64,000 nucleotides of DNA. Origin: Tautonia marina (GTDB lineage Bacteria > Planctomycetota > Planctomycetia > Isosphaerales > Isosphaeraceae). Positions 8,409-13,261 of this stretch are shown in pieces. The notes under the pieces were generated by a model. That model was not told the DNA's origin and did no database searches. It worked only from the letters and a program-made list of their open reading frames with translations. The DNA lies in the NCBI RefSeq assembly GCF_009177065.1, contig NZ_WEZF01000012.1, positions 124,001 through 188,000 on the forward strand, in the 5' to 3' direction. The position numbers and the translations under genes were made by a program. How positions within the stretch are numbered: position 1 is the first letter of the stretch; the number at the start of each line of letters is the position of its first letter.

Positions 8409-8684
8409 CGCCGTTTCATCTCGCGGAAAGGAAGGTTTCTCGGTGCGGCCTCAAGGGTTGGGTCAACCCATTTATCATAGAGCGAACGGCTTCGGTCGAA
8501 CAGGTCCAGAGCGAGGATCGCCAGGGATGAGGTGGAAGGCCAGCCGTAGGTTCCCAACGTGGGGGCTCCGAAACAACTGGCCTATCCTCCTGGTTCGATC
8601 ACGGCTAAGATGATTGAACTACACGCCAGTTCCGGCGTTTTCGAGAATGAACCAGGATGTCTCGATCGGCGGGGACGGATTCCC

Positions 8685-10631
8685 GTGAGCTCGACTACGT
8701 TGAAGCCGGTGACCCCGCCACCGCCGTCTCCCCCGCCTCCCTCCGGCACCGAGGATGCGACCGCTCCTCGACCCTTGCCGCCGATCCTGGGAACGCTGCT
8801 TAGCGGGACCTTCTGGCTCGCACTGCGGACCCCGTTGTCGGCGGTCACGGCCTTCTGGAGCGTCCCCCTGATGATCGGGGCGTTCGGGCAGGAGCCGTTC
8901 GGTGCCTACCGATTCGCCTGGGGGCTCGGGTTCTTCCAGCTGCTGCTCGAATTCGGGATGAGCTCGGCGCTCCAGCGAGAGGTGTCCGACCGCTGGACCC
9001 GAGGAGACAAAGCCGGGGTTGATCGAGCTATCACCTGCGGCTCCCTCTTCTACGCGGTCATCGCCCTGATTCAGTCGCTCGTCTTGATGGGGATCGCCTA
9101 CGGGGTGATGCCATTCTCGAAGGAGTTCTCCGGGAGCGACTATGATCTGATCATCAAGTTGCTCTGGATCCAGATCCTGACCTCGCCGAGCTTTGGGATC
9201 GGCGTGGTGCTGTCGAGCATCCTCCAGGCGGCTCGACGTTACGAGGTCTTGCCGCGGTTCGAATTTCTGATCGTCGCGGCGCGGTTCGGGGTCCTCGTCG
9301 GCGGGATCGCGCTCGGCGCGGGCTTGCTGACGATCGTTATCGCGCAGACGGTTCTCTCGATGGCGTTGAGCTTCGGCCCGGCGCTCTGGGTCATTCGTCG
9401 CGAAGTTGACTATCGGCCCCGGTTCGTCCGGGTGGGATTGAGAGACTTCCGAGGACTGGCGCAACTGAGCGCCTACATGTTCTTGATTCAGCTCAGTGTC
9501 GTGCTGGCGGACAAGGTTGACACCACGATCCTCGGCTTCGTCCTGGGATCGCCGGCGGTCGCGGTGTACACGGCGGTGAGCAGCCCCTTCTTGCAACTGA
9601 GGCAGATGGGCTGGACGCTGGCCTACTTCGTCATGCCGGCCGTGGCGAGCCTGGCAGCGGCGGGAGACCGCGAGGGGCTCGACCGGGTGACCTACGACGG
9701 GGCCCGGTTGCATTCGGCCTTCGTCCTCGCCGTCGGATTGCTGGCGTTCCTCTATGCCGGGCCGTTCCTGGAACTCTGGGTCGGCCCCAAGTTTCCGGGG
9801 GAGTATGGCCTAGGATTGATGTCCTCTGTGAACGACGTGGGCGACATCCCGACCAAGGGCGTGGATCTGGTCATCGTGGCCGACGTGCAAGGTGTCCTTC
9901 ACTTCCGGATTTTTGACACTCATGGTCAGATCACCGTGGACACCGACGAGACTCAATTGCCCGACCATGATGCGTCAAAGCTTGATGAGCTGAAATCGCT
10001 CCTCGCTGGCTTGTCGGATCAGTCGCCAGTCTCCCCGAGCGTCAAGACCAAGGTCATCGATGCTGCCACATCAATCGTCGGTCACACTCTTCCGGGGAAG
10101 ATCCCGCAAATGACGCGGTTGATGCGGCTCTTCCTGGTCGCCGCCATTCCCTTGCTGATCGCGGTCCATGTGCAGGTTTGTACGGGACTAGGGAAACTGG
10201 CCGTGGTGGCCGTGGCGGCGATCGCAGGGGCGGCGGTCAACTTGCCGCTCAGTTATGTGCTGACGCGCCAGCTCGGAGTCGCGGGGGTAATCTGGGGGAC
10301 GGTGCTGACCACCTTGTTCTCGAACTTTCTGGTGCCGATCATCTACACGTTCAAGGTGCTCGAGGTCCGACCGGCCGCCTATTTGCGCCGGACCCTGCTG
10401 GCGCCGGCCGTGGGGGCGTCGTTAATGGTCTCCACCAGCATCCTGCTCGAACGGGCGGCCTTCACGGCGGCGCCGAGCGGGGACGATCCCGTGATGCGTA
10501 TGGTGCCCTTCGTGACCCACCTTGGGGTCGGGTGTGCGAGCTTCGTGGCAGGGTATGCCCTCATTCCCGCTGGCCGCTCCGACTTGCAACGGGTGCTCAG
10601 GCGATTCCGAAAACCGGAGGCACCGGCCTGA
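8685..10631 (+). CDS. MOP-superfamily flippase (polysaccharide/oligosaccharide exporter) with an internal extra domain
   Basis: About 648 residues from a GTG at 8685 (upstream GGGGACGG); the frame is open back to 8559 with an ATG at 8610, so the start is uncertain. A Pro-rich N-terminus (PPPPSPPPP) precedes roughly 12-14 hydrophobic helices typical of Wzx/MurJ/MATE-like lipid-linked glycan flippases of the inner membrane. Between ELWVGPKFPG and the next helix (TRLMRLFLVAAIPLL) lies a soluble segment of 99 residues that such proteins lack, with VLHFRIFD, VDTDET and TSIVGHT motifs. I recall this as a short free-standing family in planctomycetes and cyanobacteria. See the separate entry for 9793-10089. 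Confidence 0.88.
   Translation: MSSTTLKPVTPPPPSPPPPSGTEDATAPRPLPPILGTLLSGTFWLALRTPLSAVTAFWSVPLMIGAFGQEPFGAYRFAWGLGFFQLLLEFGMSSALQREVSDRWTRGDKAGVDRAITCGSLFYAVIALIQSLVLMGIAYGVMPFSKEFSGSDYDLIIKLLWIQILTSPSFGIGVVLSSILQAARRYEVLPRFEFLIVAARFGVLVGGIALGAGLLTIVIAQTVLSMALSFGPALWVIRREVDYRPRFVRVGLRDFRGLAQLSAYMFLIQLSVVLADKVDTTILGFVLGSPAVAVYTAVSSPFLQLRQMGWTLAYFVMPAVASLAAAGDREGLDRVTYDGARLHSAFVLAVGLLAFLYAGPFLELWVGPKFPGEYGLGLMSSVNDVGDIPTKGVDLVIVADVQGVLHFRIFDTHGQITVDTDETQLPDHDASKLDELKSLLAGLSDQSPVSPSVKTKVIDAATSIVGHTLPGKIPQMTRLMRLFLVAAIPLLIAVHVQVCTGLGKLAVVAVAAIAGAAVNLPLSYVLTRQLGVAGVIWGTVLTTLFSNFLVPIIYTFKVLEVRPAAYLRRTLLAPAVGASLMVSTSILLERAAFTAAPSGDDPVMRMVPFVTHLGVGCASFVAGYALIPAGRSDLQRVLRRFRKPEAPA
9793..10089 (+). mobile_element. 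In-frame 297-bp insertion (VLHFRIFD-type domain) inside the flippase
   Basis: The segment is flanked by an 11-bp direct repeat with one mismatch: TTCCGGGGGAG at 9793-9803 and TTCCGGGGAAG at 10090-10100. The repeat offset is 297 bp, exactly 99 codons, so removing one unit restores an uninterrupted membrane protein (…VGPK-FPG-KIPQMTRLMR…). Near the two ends lies a 9-bp inverted repeat, GATTGATGT (9814-9822) and ACATCAATC (10068-10076). The inserted peptide begins Met-Ser-Ser-Val-Asn-Asp, like a free gene start, and its codons look less G+C-skewed than the host gene. No transposase is present, so mobility is inference. Confidence 0.55.
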
Positions 10632-10705
10632 TCGTCGCCGGAATCGGGTCGAACAGTCTACAATGAGGGTGTTCCGGCCCCTTCATCCTCGGCCCCTGGA
10701 GCGGC

Positions 10706-11269
10706 ATGGTCATGTCTCAGCGATCGCCCGGAGTCCGACGGGAAGGCCCTCGAATCCGAGTCGACGATCGAGGAGACGGATCAACGGCGATCCGAGGTCG
10801 AGGAGTGTCGGGAAGGTGGTTCGTCGGAGCCGCGGTGGTCGGACTGCTGATGGTCTGGGGAGCGCTCTACGTGCTCTTCTGGTTCTGGCGATCGGGGGTC
10901 GAGGAACGCATCGCGTTTGGCAAGAACCAGGTGCTTCCGATTGTTACCGAACTGGCCGCCCTGGAACCGCCAGGGATCGACCGGAACGACTGGCTGCAAG
11001 CCGTTGCCGACACTGAGACCATGCTGGAGGAGGTGGTCGGCACCGGCCGGATGGATCGATCACGGCTTCAGGCGCTGCGATCGGACCTGGAACGACGCGT
11101 GGTCGAGGCTCATCGATCTCCGGAGTTGGCCCCTGAGATCCTTGCCCGGATCTGGGACGACATGGCACTCGTGAAACGGTTCCGATCCGAGACGGAACGT
11201 CCCGAACTGATCCGAGCGCCGGACGAACGCCCCGGGGATTCGGGGATTCGGGAGGAGACGCGAGGATGA
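10706..11269 (+). CDS. Single-pass membrane protein of unknown function
   Basis: 187 residues (or 185 from the second ATG). A basic N-terminal stretch of about 38 residues is followed by one TM helix (about 38-61, rich in Trp/Phe: VWGALYVLFWFWR) and a charged helical domain of about 120 residues without a motif I recognise. A GGAG precedes the first ATG. The stop overlaps the start of the cold-shock/DUF1294 gene by ATGA, so the two are translationally coupled and probably act together at the inner membrane. Confidence 0.75.
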   Translation: MVMSQRSPGVRREGPRIRVDDRGDGSTAIRGRGVSGRWFVGAAVVGLLMVWGALYVLFWFWRSGVEERIAFGKNQVLPIVTELAALEPPGIDRNDWLQAVADTETMLEEVVGTGRMDRSRLQALRSDLERRVVEAHRSPELAPEILARIWDDMALVKRFRSETERPELIRAPDERPGDSGIREETRG

Positions 11270-11965: not shown

Positions 11966-13261
11966 TCAGGCAAACGCCTCGGTGATCGGGGTTCCGTCTC
12001 GGACGATGGCGACGGGGCGGCCGGTGGGGGTGTGGTATTCGGCCTTGGGATCGATCCCAAGGCAAGAGTAGAGGGTCGCCGCGACGTCGTCGGGGGCGAA
12101 ACCGGAGCCGGAGGCAGGTCCGGAACCGGTGTCGTCGCTGGCCCCGACAACGCGGCCGCCAGCGATCCCGCCACCTCCCATGACCACGAACATGGCGCGG
12201 GGGAAGTGATCGCGGCCCCCTCTCGCGTTGACTTTCGGTGTCCGGCCGAACTCTCCGGAGACCATGACCAGGGTTGATTCCAACAACCCCTTTTGCGCCA
12301 GGGCCAGGAACAGCCCGGAAAGCCCGGCGTCGAGTTCGGGAAGGTTTCGCGTCTTCAGGCGATTGAAATTGTCCTGGTGGGTGTCCCAGCCGCCGTGCGA
12401 GACAGCGACGAACCGGACGCCTGACTCAACGAGACGCGAGGCGAGCAGGCAGCTTTGCGAAAAGGAATCACGACCGAACAACCGGGTGACGGATCGGGAC
12501 TCTCGACTGATGTCGAACGCCTCTCGTGATCGAGACGAGCTGATGATGTCACAGGCCCGCTGCGAAAAGGCATCGAGGCCGTTGATCAGGTCACTCGACT
12601 CGAACCCAGCAAAGGTCTGGTCGATCTGCTGGAGTAAGTTTCGGCGTCGGCCCACTTCTTCGACCGTCAAGCCTCCGCCGAGCGAGATACCCCGCACGTT
12701 GAACGGCTGACCGGCTCGGGGGGCCGTCTGGGTGCTGAACGGGGCGTATTCGACGCCGAGGTACCCGGAAACCTGCGGGGTGTTTGGGATAGCCACGAAG
12801 GGCGGAATGTCTCGGGGTGAGGACAGTTCCTTGCTGACCACCGCTCCATAGCCAGGGAAGACCAGGGACGGGAGCGGCCGATTCCCGGTGTTCAGGTACT
12901 TCGTCCCCAGGTCATGCGCGGCGACGGAGTGACTAACCCCGCGGATGATCGTGTAATGATCGGCACATTGCGCCAGCTTGGGTAAATGTTCACTGATCGA
13001 AACACCGGAGATGGAGGTGGGAATGGTTGCGAATTCCCCTCGAATCCCATCGGGAGCCTCGGGCTTGGGGTCGAACGTATCGAGATGCGAGGGACCGCCC
13101 CCGAGATTGATGTGAATGGCCGCGGTCGCCCGCCCTGATCGCACCGCGCCCGCCTCGGCCAGCCGCAGGTACGAGGAGAGGGTCAGCCCGGTTCCACCCA
13201 GGACACCGATCTTGAGAAAATCGCGGCGACGGACCCCGTCGCACGTCCGGCTCGTGGCCAT
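11966..13261 (-). CDS. DUF1501 family Tat-exported protein
   Basis: 431 residues. A twin-arginine-type leader (RRRDFLKIGVLGGTGL at about 11-27) is followed by a DUF1501 domain with an alkaline-phosphatase-like fold: INLGGGPSHLDTFDPKP near residue 50, SVAAHD, SHGGWDTHQDN and VSGEFGRTPK. A good AGGAGG lies 6 nt before the ATG. DUF1501 proteins in planctomycetes almost always sit next to a PSCyt/DUF1549/DUF1553 partner, as here (150 bp upstream). It probably acts in the periplasm; the substrate is unknown, with sulfated glycans a common guess. It is the last gene of the ECF-controlled operon. Confidence 0.93.
   Translation of the reverse strand: MATSRTCDGVRRRDFLKIGVLGGTGLTLSSYLRLAEAGAVRSGRATAAIHINLGGGPSHLDTFDPKPEAPDGIRGEFATIPTSISGVSISEHLPKLAQCADHYTIIRGVSHSVAAHDLGTKYLNTGNRPLPSLVFPGYGAVVSKELSSPRDIPPFVAIPNTPQVSGYLGVEYAPFSTQTAPRAGQPFNVRGISLGGGLTVEEVGRRRNLLQQIDQTFAGFESSDLINGLDAFSQRACDIISSSRSREAFDISRESRSVTRLFGRDSFSQSCLLASRLVESGVRFVAVSHGGWDTHQDNFNRLKTRNLPELDAGLSGLFLALAQKGLLESTLVMVSGEFGRTPKVNARGGRDHFPRAMFVVMGGGGIAGGRVVGASDDTGSGPASGSGFAPDDVAATLYSCLGIDPKAEYHTPTGRPVAIVRDGTPITEAFA

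Follow-up and report, generated by a model that had tools for sequence, protein, structure and literature searches.

A flippase gene in the window, by which we mean the whole 64-kb stretch of DNA analysed here, carries 99 codons that its orthologues lack, and the question it raises is how a peptide of this length came to lie inside a membrane protein with the reading frame preserved. A preliminary description had proposed a mobile element, itself protein-coding, that enters genes in frame, a proposal borne out by a target-site duplication (TSD), terminal inverted repeats (TIRs), an exact empty site, 29 unrelated host sites across genomes and a further empty site in a YidC gene. The insertion is of the transposition type: it has an exact duplication, lies in frame, is absent from orthologues and belongs to a recurrent family. 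Here, we argue that the insert is very probably an in-frame, protein-coding, non-autonomous transposon (a coding MITE), one probably moved by ISKra4 transposases.

Anatomy of the insertion and its empty site

The host gene forms a single open frame (Table 1), the flanks of which match Polysacc_synt (PF01943 / PF13440), and its orthologues are found in 44 of the 45 genomes of the family (Isosphaeraceae). As had been reported, the frame is kept across the 99 extra residues: the element contributes 289 bp and the duplication a further 8 bp, which together make 297 bp, or 99 codons, so that the downstream frame is preserved and the ORF is open throughout. These codons begin with Glu and end with L-P-G, and the residues encoded by 9801-10097 have no match among Pfam or NCBIfam models. 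The insert lies in the loop after LWVGPKF, which we infer from MOP/MurJ topology to be extracytoplasmic. Downstream of the flippase, on the reverse strand at 11966-13261, is a DUF1501-like protein of a type typical of planctomycetes, named by eye.

Table 1. Positions of the flippase gene, the inserted element and its parts, numbered along the window
Feature	Position	Strand	Remarks
MOP/Wzx-like flippase ORF, host gene with in-frame interruption	8559-10631	+	690 aa counted from first GTG
Target-site duplication, left copy TTCCGGGG, 8 bp	9793-9800		single copy at the orthologues' empty site
Target-site duplication, right copy TTCCGGGG, 8 bp	10090-10097		8/8 identical to left copy
Mobile element, 289 bp, one frame open throughout	9801-10089	+	delimited by TSD/TIR ends and orthologue alignments
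Left TIR GAGTATGGCCTAGGATTGATGT	9801-9822	+	in-frame reading EYGLGLM (relatives: G-[YF]-D-L-R-L-M)
Right TIR GAGTGTGACCGACGATTGATGT	10068-10089	-	complement reads TSIVGHT in frame
99 added codons, predicted compact bbbb-aa domain	9801-10097	+	AlphaFold models of the window copy and relative L044
Core VLHFRIFD, most conserved part	9894-9917	+	R and F invariant across 26 copies

The repeats seen in the preliminary description are real and are explained by the anatomy of a transposon. The two copies of its 11-bp direct repeat start 297 bp apart, at 9793 and 10090, agree at 10 of 11 positions and consist of the eight identical bases of the duplication followed by GAG or AAG, which are the left end of the element and the right flank, respectively, and the 9-bp inverted repeat (9814-9822/10068-10076) forms the inner part of the 22-bp TIR. 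The TIRs are complementary at 18 of 22 positions, and the inverted repeat is limited to 22-28 bp at the element ends, the rest not being palindromic. The peptide motifs VLHFRIFD, VDTDET and TSIVGHT stand as first given; the supposed Met-like gene start corresponds to an existing ATG (9819-9821), but this belongs to the TIR and shows no sign of use as a start. As the forward TIR contains TGA stops in two of its three frames, the element can be read through in one orientation and one codon phase only, and it is the translated TIRs that give the conserved peptide ends, G-x-D-L-R-L-M and T-S-I-V-G-H-T. The TIR consensus, drawn from relatives, has exactly two matches in the 64-kb window, with 0.02 expected, and both are the element ends. 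An RNA element was considered and rejected, with no match returned by an Rfam search of 9000-11000.

Alignment with orthologues, a check that had been proposed, speaks for an insertion. The 99 residues are absent from 29 of 29 aligned flippase orthologues, the opposite of a domain carried at the same place by all close orthologues. In the two nearest, G003 (88% identical across the N-terminal part) and G001, the DNA shows no gap when aligned with the two window flanks brought together at a single TTCCGGGG, which is the exact empty site. This site and the absence from the other orthologues place the insertion on the lineage of the source genome, after its split from G003. Consistent with a recent arrival, the insert is poorer than the host gene in G+C (0.561 vs 0.645) and in GC3 (0.69 vs 0.82). 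The copy in YidC of G001, which is absent from three congeners, provides a second empty-site case.

Terminal repeats and the candidate transposase

The window element encodes no transposase, its single open frame being of unknown family. Allowing up to three mismatches, the TIR pattern gives 57 matches over the 45 family genomes, against three for the reversed control, and inverted pairs of these matches bound IS, passenger-gene units and non-coding MITEs (L108, L110), with 8-bp target duplications. In five TIR-bounded elements the TSDs are perfect (8/8): GCCAAGGC, GGCTTTGG, ATCGCTGA, GTCGCGAT and GGTGGAAG. Two elements with a matching TIR, L104 and L105, encode ISKra4-family transposases (NF033572, E 4e-45 and 6e-52; the scores are under the model's curated cut-off and the assignment is at family level). 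The source genome, a draft of 80 contigs, holds only one degenerate ISKra4-like match, with 34% identity and an internal TGA, and its congeners G002 and G001 are richer in transposase or TIR copies. We infer that an ISKra4-family transposase acting in trans probably moved the window element.

The mover could instead be a transposase of another family that shares this type of TIR. The instance that speaks for this is found in G011 (L106:568-3140), where TIRs of this type, with the perfect 8-bp duplication GGCTTTGG, enclose a transposase of the IS701 family together with a membrane-protein ORF, an arrangement that reflects either a nested element or shared ends. Since the IS701 gene may thus be nested or a passenger, and since the two smaller TIR-bearing elements encode only ISKra4 transposases, we consider another family distinctly improbable as the source of the transposase and retain ISKra4.

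In G001, some 20 TIR copies are set back from the ends of contigs by an almost constant interval (~106-127 bases; e.g. C52:106-127, C53:94655-94676), apparently as parts of an abundant repeat of ISKra4 type at which the assembly broke.

Other copies, their hosts and the encoded domain

Searches of the family, the class and one verrucomicrobial class, together with a genome-contig scan, yielded 35 copies including that of the window, at 29 distinct host sites in Planctomycetota and Verrucomicrobiota. All lie in frame within longer ORFs, and none of the 35 is free-standing or intergenic. A profile search of the phylum with a 19-row alignment found two genomes only and was weaker than a single consensus protein, which was used instead; the consensus queries, drawn in part from the local alignment, served for locus finding only, and of two genome-contig scans made with them the first found nothing and the second three loci, one of them verrucomicrobial. 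A phage origin was rejected: the plasmids and phages searched contain no copy, and a match on a viral contig (L071) is due to chance.

The peptide family had also been described as multi-copy in planctomycetes and cyanobacteria. Multiple copies do not hold for the source genome, where no second copy was found in the 80 draft contigs, and the searches, which covered cyanobacterial chromosomes poorly, turned up no cyanobacterial copy. Taken literally, the stated refutation that no other genomic copies exist applies within this genome, and the proposal survives it only across genomes, with its 29 host sites. Relatives' genomes hold one to three diverged copies each, and nowhere in the genomes searched were two domain-bearing copies found to be nearly identical. 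Even the best match to the window copy shares only 45% amino-acid identity with it, so the donor is unsampled and no current activity is seen, and a single recent copy of this kind suggests that the element either was transferred from a different organism or has lost its source copy.

The hosts, named by eye where they have no Pfam match, are diverse. Transport and membrane proteins include five RND pump sites, YidC, a CNT nucleoside transporter, where the insert sits between the N-terminal and gate domains, and a sigma factor fused to a membrane protein. The others are an adenosine-deaminase-like protein, multicopper oxidases, a PQQ propeller, a RoxA-like cytochrome, kinases with WD40 or TPR parts, an HNH-type protein and an RCC1-type protein. 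By eye, many hosts have an extracytoplasmic look (the periplasmic part of RND pumps, YidC, PQQ, multicopper oxidase, RoxA-like cytochrome), a trend from which the HNH and deaminase hosts, probably cytoplasmic, depart. A second subfamily of the domain (L052, L054, L058, L060, L066, L069) starts with LQLVSWGNG, has an extra residue after VVG and occurs mostly in beta-helix or surface-type proteins.

Although the old copies have no recognisable TSDs, traces of the TIR persist in many of them. Compared at the predicted register, and against a background of 31,339 in-frame positions of host ORFs, the 5' ends of the other copies match the TIR at a mean of 11.2 of 22 positions (background 7.8, z 10.7) and the 3' ends at a mean of 11.1 (background 8.5, z 9.2), a signal to which conservation of these residues in the protein could have contributed in part. 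The 5' relic is individually significant (p<0.005) in 12-13 copies, and both ends are kept in three copies of 286-289 bp, L046 (18 and 17 of 22), L047 (16 and 16) and L060 (16 and 15). In about half of the old copies the TIR has left no trace at one end or at both, and the membership of these copies rests on protein similarity.

These relics bear on whether the domain might be an ordinary accessory one, spread by recombination and gene fusion, with the repeats at the window copy arising by chance. Such a history would suit its conservation at the protein level, and the old sites that multicopper oxidases share, like those of the HNH proteins, are indeed inherited in the manner of normal domains. 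It is disfavoured by the exact 8-bp TSD, the TIRs and the empty site, by the confinement of TIR matches in 64 kb to the two element ends and by the fixed-register relics in copies of unrelated hosts, which leave it the least credible of the readings weighed here; plain gene fusion was likewise rejected.

Between copies, identity at codon positions 1, 2 and 3 is 0.465, 0.569 and 0.413, compared with 0.29, 0.26 and 0.34 expected from composition, and G+C at these positions is 0.66, 0.41 and 0.80, a pattern that points to a coding sequence under selection as protein. Within shared host sites, dN/dS of the insert is ~0.12-0.30 for the HNH proteins, ~0.5 for an RND pair and ~1.1 for a pair of WD40 kinases (host 0.47); several synonymous distances are near saturation and the values are rough, and their spread indicates that some copies are kept and others are decaying.

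Models from AlphaFold, given a four-row alignment (window, L043, L044, L045) out of 26 aligned copies, agree on the order of elements, bbbb-aa, for the window copy (pLDDT 74.3, pTM 0.64) and, with AF2, for L044, where the prediction is confident (pLDDT 92.7, pTM 0.85). In the predicted domain, the first strand and the last helix are encoded by the TIRs. A sequence search of the PDB found no relative at a convincing level, fold searches of the two models against PDB and viral models gave nothing at E<=0.001, and the domain matches no Pfam or PHROG family. The fold may be new, the lack of a Foldseek match in PDB and viral models being no proof of this.

A plain MITE, its interior open by accident and its protein similarity a product of shared DNA descent, would encode a peptide with neither fold nor selection. 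The occurrence in the family of non-coding MITEs with the same TIR, and the capacity of loops to tolerate short open inserts, would allow for this, but the much stronger conservation of codon position 2 than of position 3, the low dN/dS among HNH orthologues and the confident fold of L044 weaken it until it appears highly improbable.

At the other extreme, the domain could have a function of its own, such as binding or sensing outside the membrane, for which hosts recruited it, its retention then being adaptive rather than merely tolerated. We regard this as unlikely, if worth keeping in mind. In its favour are the extracytoplasmic appearance of many hosts, the purifying selection in HNH proteins and the retention of one multicopper oxidase site across families; against it are the very low copy number, the relaxed evolution in the WD40-kinase pair, the probably cytoplasmic HNH and deaminase hosts and the want of any known fold or family. 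The oxidase site, at the same place in L065, L125 and L129 from two families, represents an old, kept insertion. In the HNH-type protein the domain lies near the N-terminus in three genera of another family (L126, L127, L128), where it is under purifying selection, a domesticated copy.

Proposed mechanism and comparison with known elements

For the coding transposon that we favour, the following course can be envisaged. An ISKra4-family transposase acting in trans would recognise the ISKra4-type TIRs and insert the element, the translation of which would fold as a small separate domain of four strands and two helices with ends supplied by the TIRs. The host protein would stay functional often enough for such insertions to survive, most others being lost, and for as long as the element sits in the gene the host protein would select for copies that are open and foldable, which would explain a conserved protein despite near-saturated DNA. 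Some copies would then have turned into lasting accessory domains, as in the multicopper oxidase and the HNH protein, and others are decaying, as in the WD40 kinase.

More tentatively, and at a little under even confidence, we suggest that this is a kind of transposon not described before. Its entire length, together with the TIRs, would code for a single domain that hosts can tolerate, the transposase recognition sites supplying the first strand and last helix of a fold without known relative. The element would thus be able to reside in host genes and leave them intact, the gene being a habitat that selects the fold, and over the long term it would furnish pumps, flippases, YidC and enzymes in Planctomycetota and Verrucomicrobiota with new domains. 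The literature searched, which lay mostly outside subscription journals, describes no such element in planctomycetes. The case brings together a TIR, an 8-bp duplication, an empty site that is exact, an IS family as candidate mover and a domain with a confidently predicted fold, all in phyla other than that of Rickettsia. The idea that a transposon might evolve a host-tolerated protein body becomes testable here, and the case offers a route for the one-step entry of new domains into essential proteins, YidC among them.

Selfish elements lying in frame within genes have been on record from Rickettsia since 2000 (PMC10969869), and the preliminary description had drawn the comparison with Rickettsia palindromic elements (RPEs). 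In the account of Ogata et al. (2000/2002) given by that review, these are palindromic sequences of ~150 bp that encode a conserved peptide and lie in frame in many unrelated genes. The comparison holds for the idea, in that a short sequence encoding a conserved peptide moves into unrelated ORFs and keeps their frame, but not for the element itself, which is an ISKra4-type-ended transposon: at 289 bp, with short terminal repeats, it departs from the RPE definition of about 100-150 bp palindromic over most of the length, and it differs further in its defined TSD, IS-type TIR and predicted folded domain, in the other phyla that its family inhabits and in the absence of intergenic copies among those found. 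The literature searched gives no transposase, target duplication or fold for RPEs.

Prokaryotic MITEs with ORFs, namely enterobacterial RU/ERIC, Anabaena MITEb/e and Coxiella QMITE1 (PMC2759123, PMC10969869, PMC5896051), are likewise non-autonomous, have TIRs and a TSD and can form in-frame fusions with host genes. Those elements are mainly intergenic and multi-copy per genome, with peptides for which no conserved fold has been shown, whereas every copy found of the present family is intragenic and the protein is its conserved part. The window element is short, lacks a transposase and has TIRs, a TSD and a TIR shared with autonomous IS of relatives (L104, L105), and it departs from a MITE in having one copy in the source genome (G000) where several similar ones are expected. 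Judged from its sequence, it is thus RPE-like in its working, yet a different element, and a MITE by definition save for copy number.

An intein is likewise an in-frame insert within host protein genes, and was rejected here: neither Hint nor any other Pfam model matches the insert, which lacks a splicing or homing domain and a Cys/Ser/Thr junction (Glu start, L-P-G end) and by its sequence would not be removed from the protein. ISKra4-family IS, which fall into the groups ISKra4, ISMich2 and ISAzba1 (p-MULT 4) and count Planctomycetes among their hosts (PMC3942029), resemble the window element in that those of the same bacterial family have a matching TIR and an 8-bp target duplication, and differ in encoding a transposase.

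Other arrangements between such ends were also seen. A trehalase/GH15 gene in G012 (L118:518-2653) has a good TIR match on one side and a weak one on the other (five mismatches, no clear duplication), which may be chance. Three passenger-gene units without transposase, with ISKra4-type TIRs and 7-8/8 target duplications (L107:530-1122 in G002, L117:1339-2440 in G020 and L115:1518-2586 in G023), carry a TIGR03067 domain, a PEP-CTERM protein and a small membrane protein; they are possible gene-carrying non-autonomous transposons, and TIGR03067, a multi-copy planctomycete family, could spread through TIR-bounded units of this kind.
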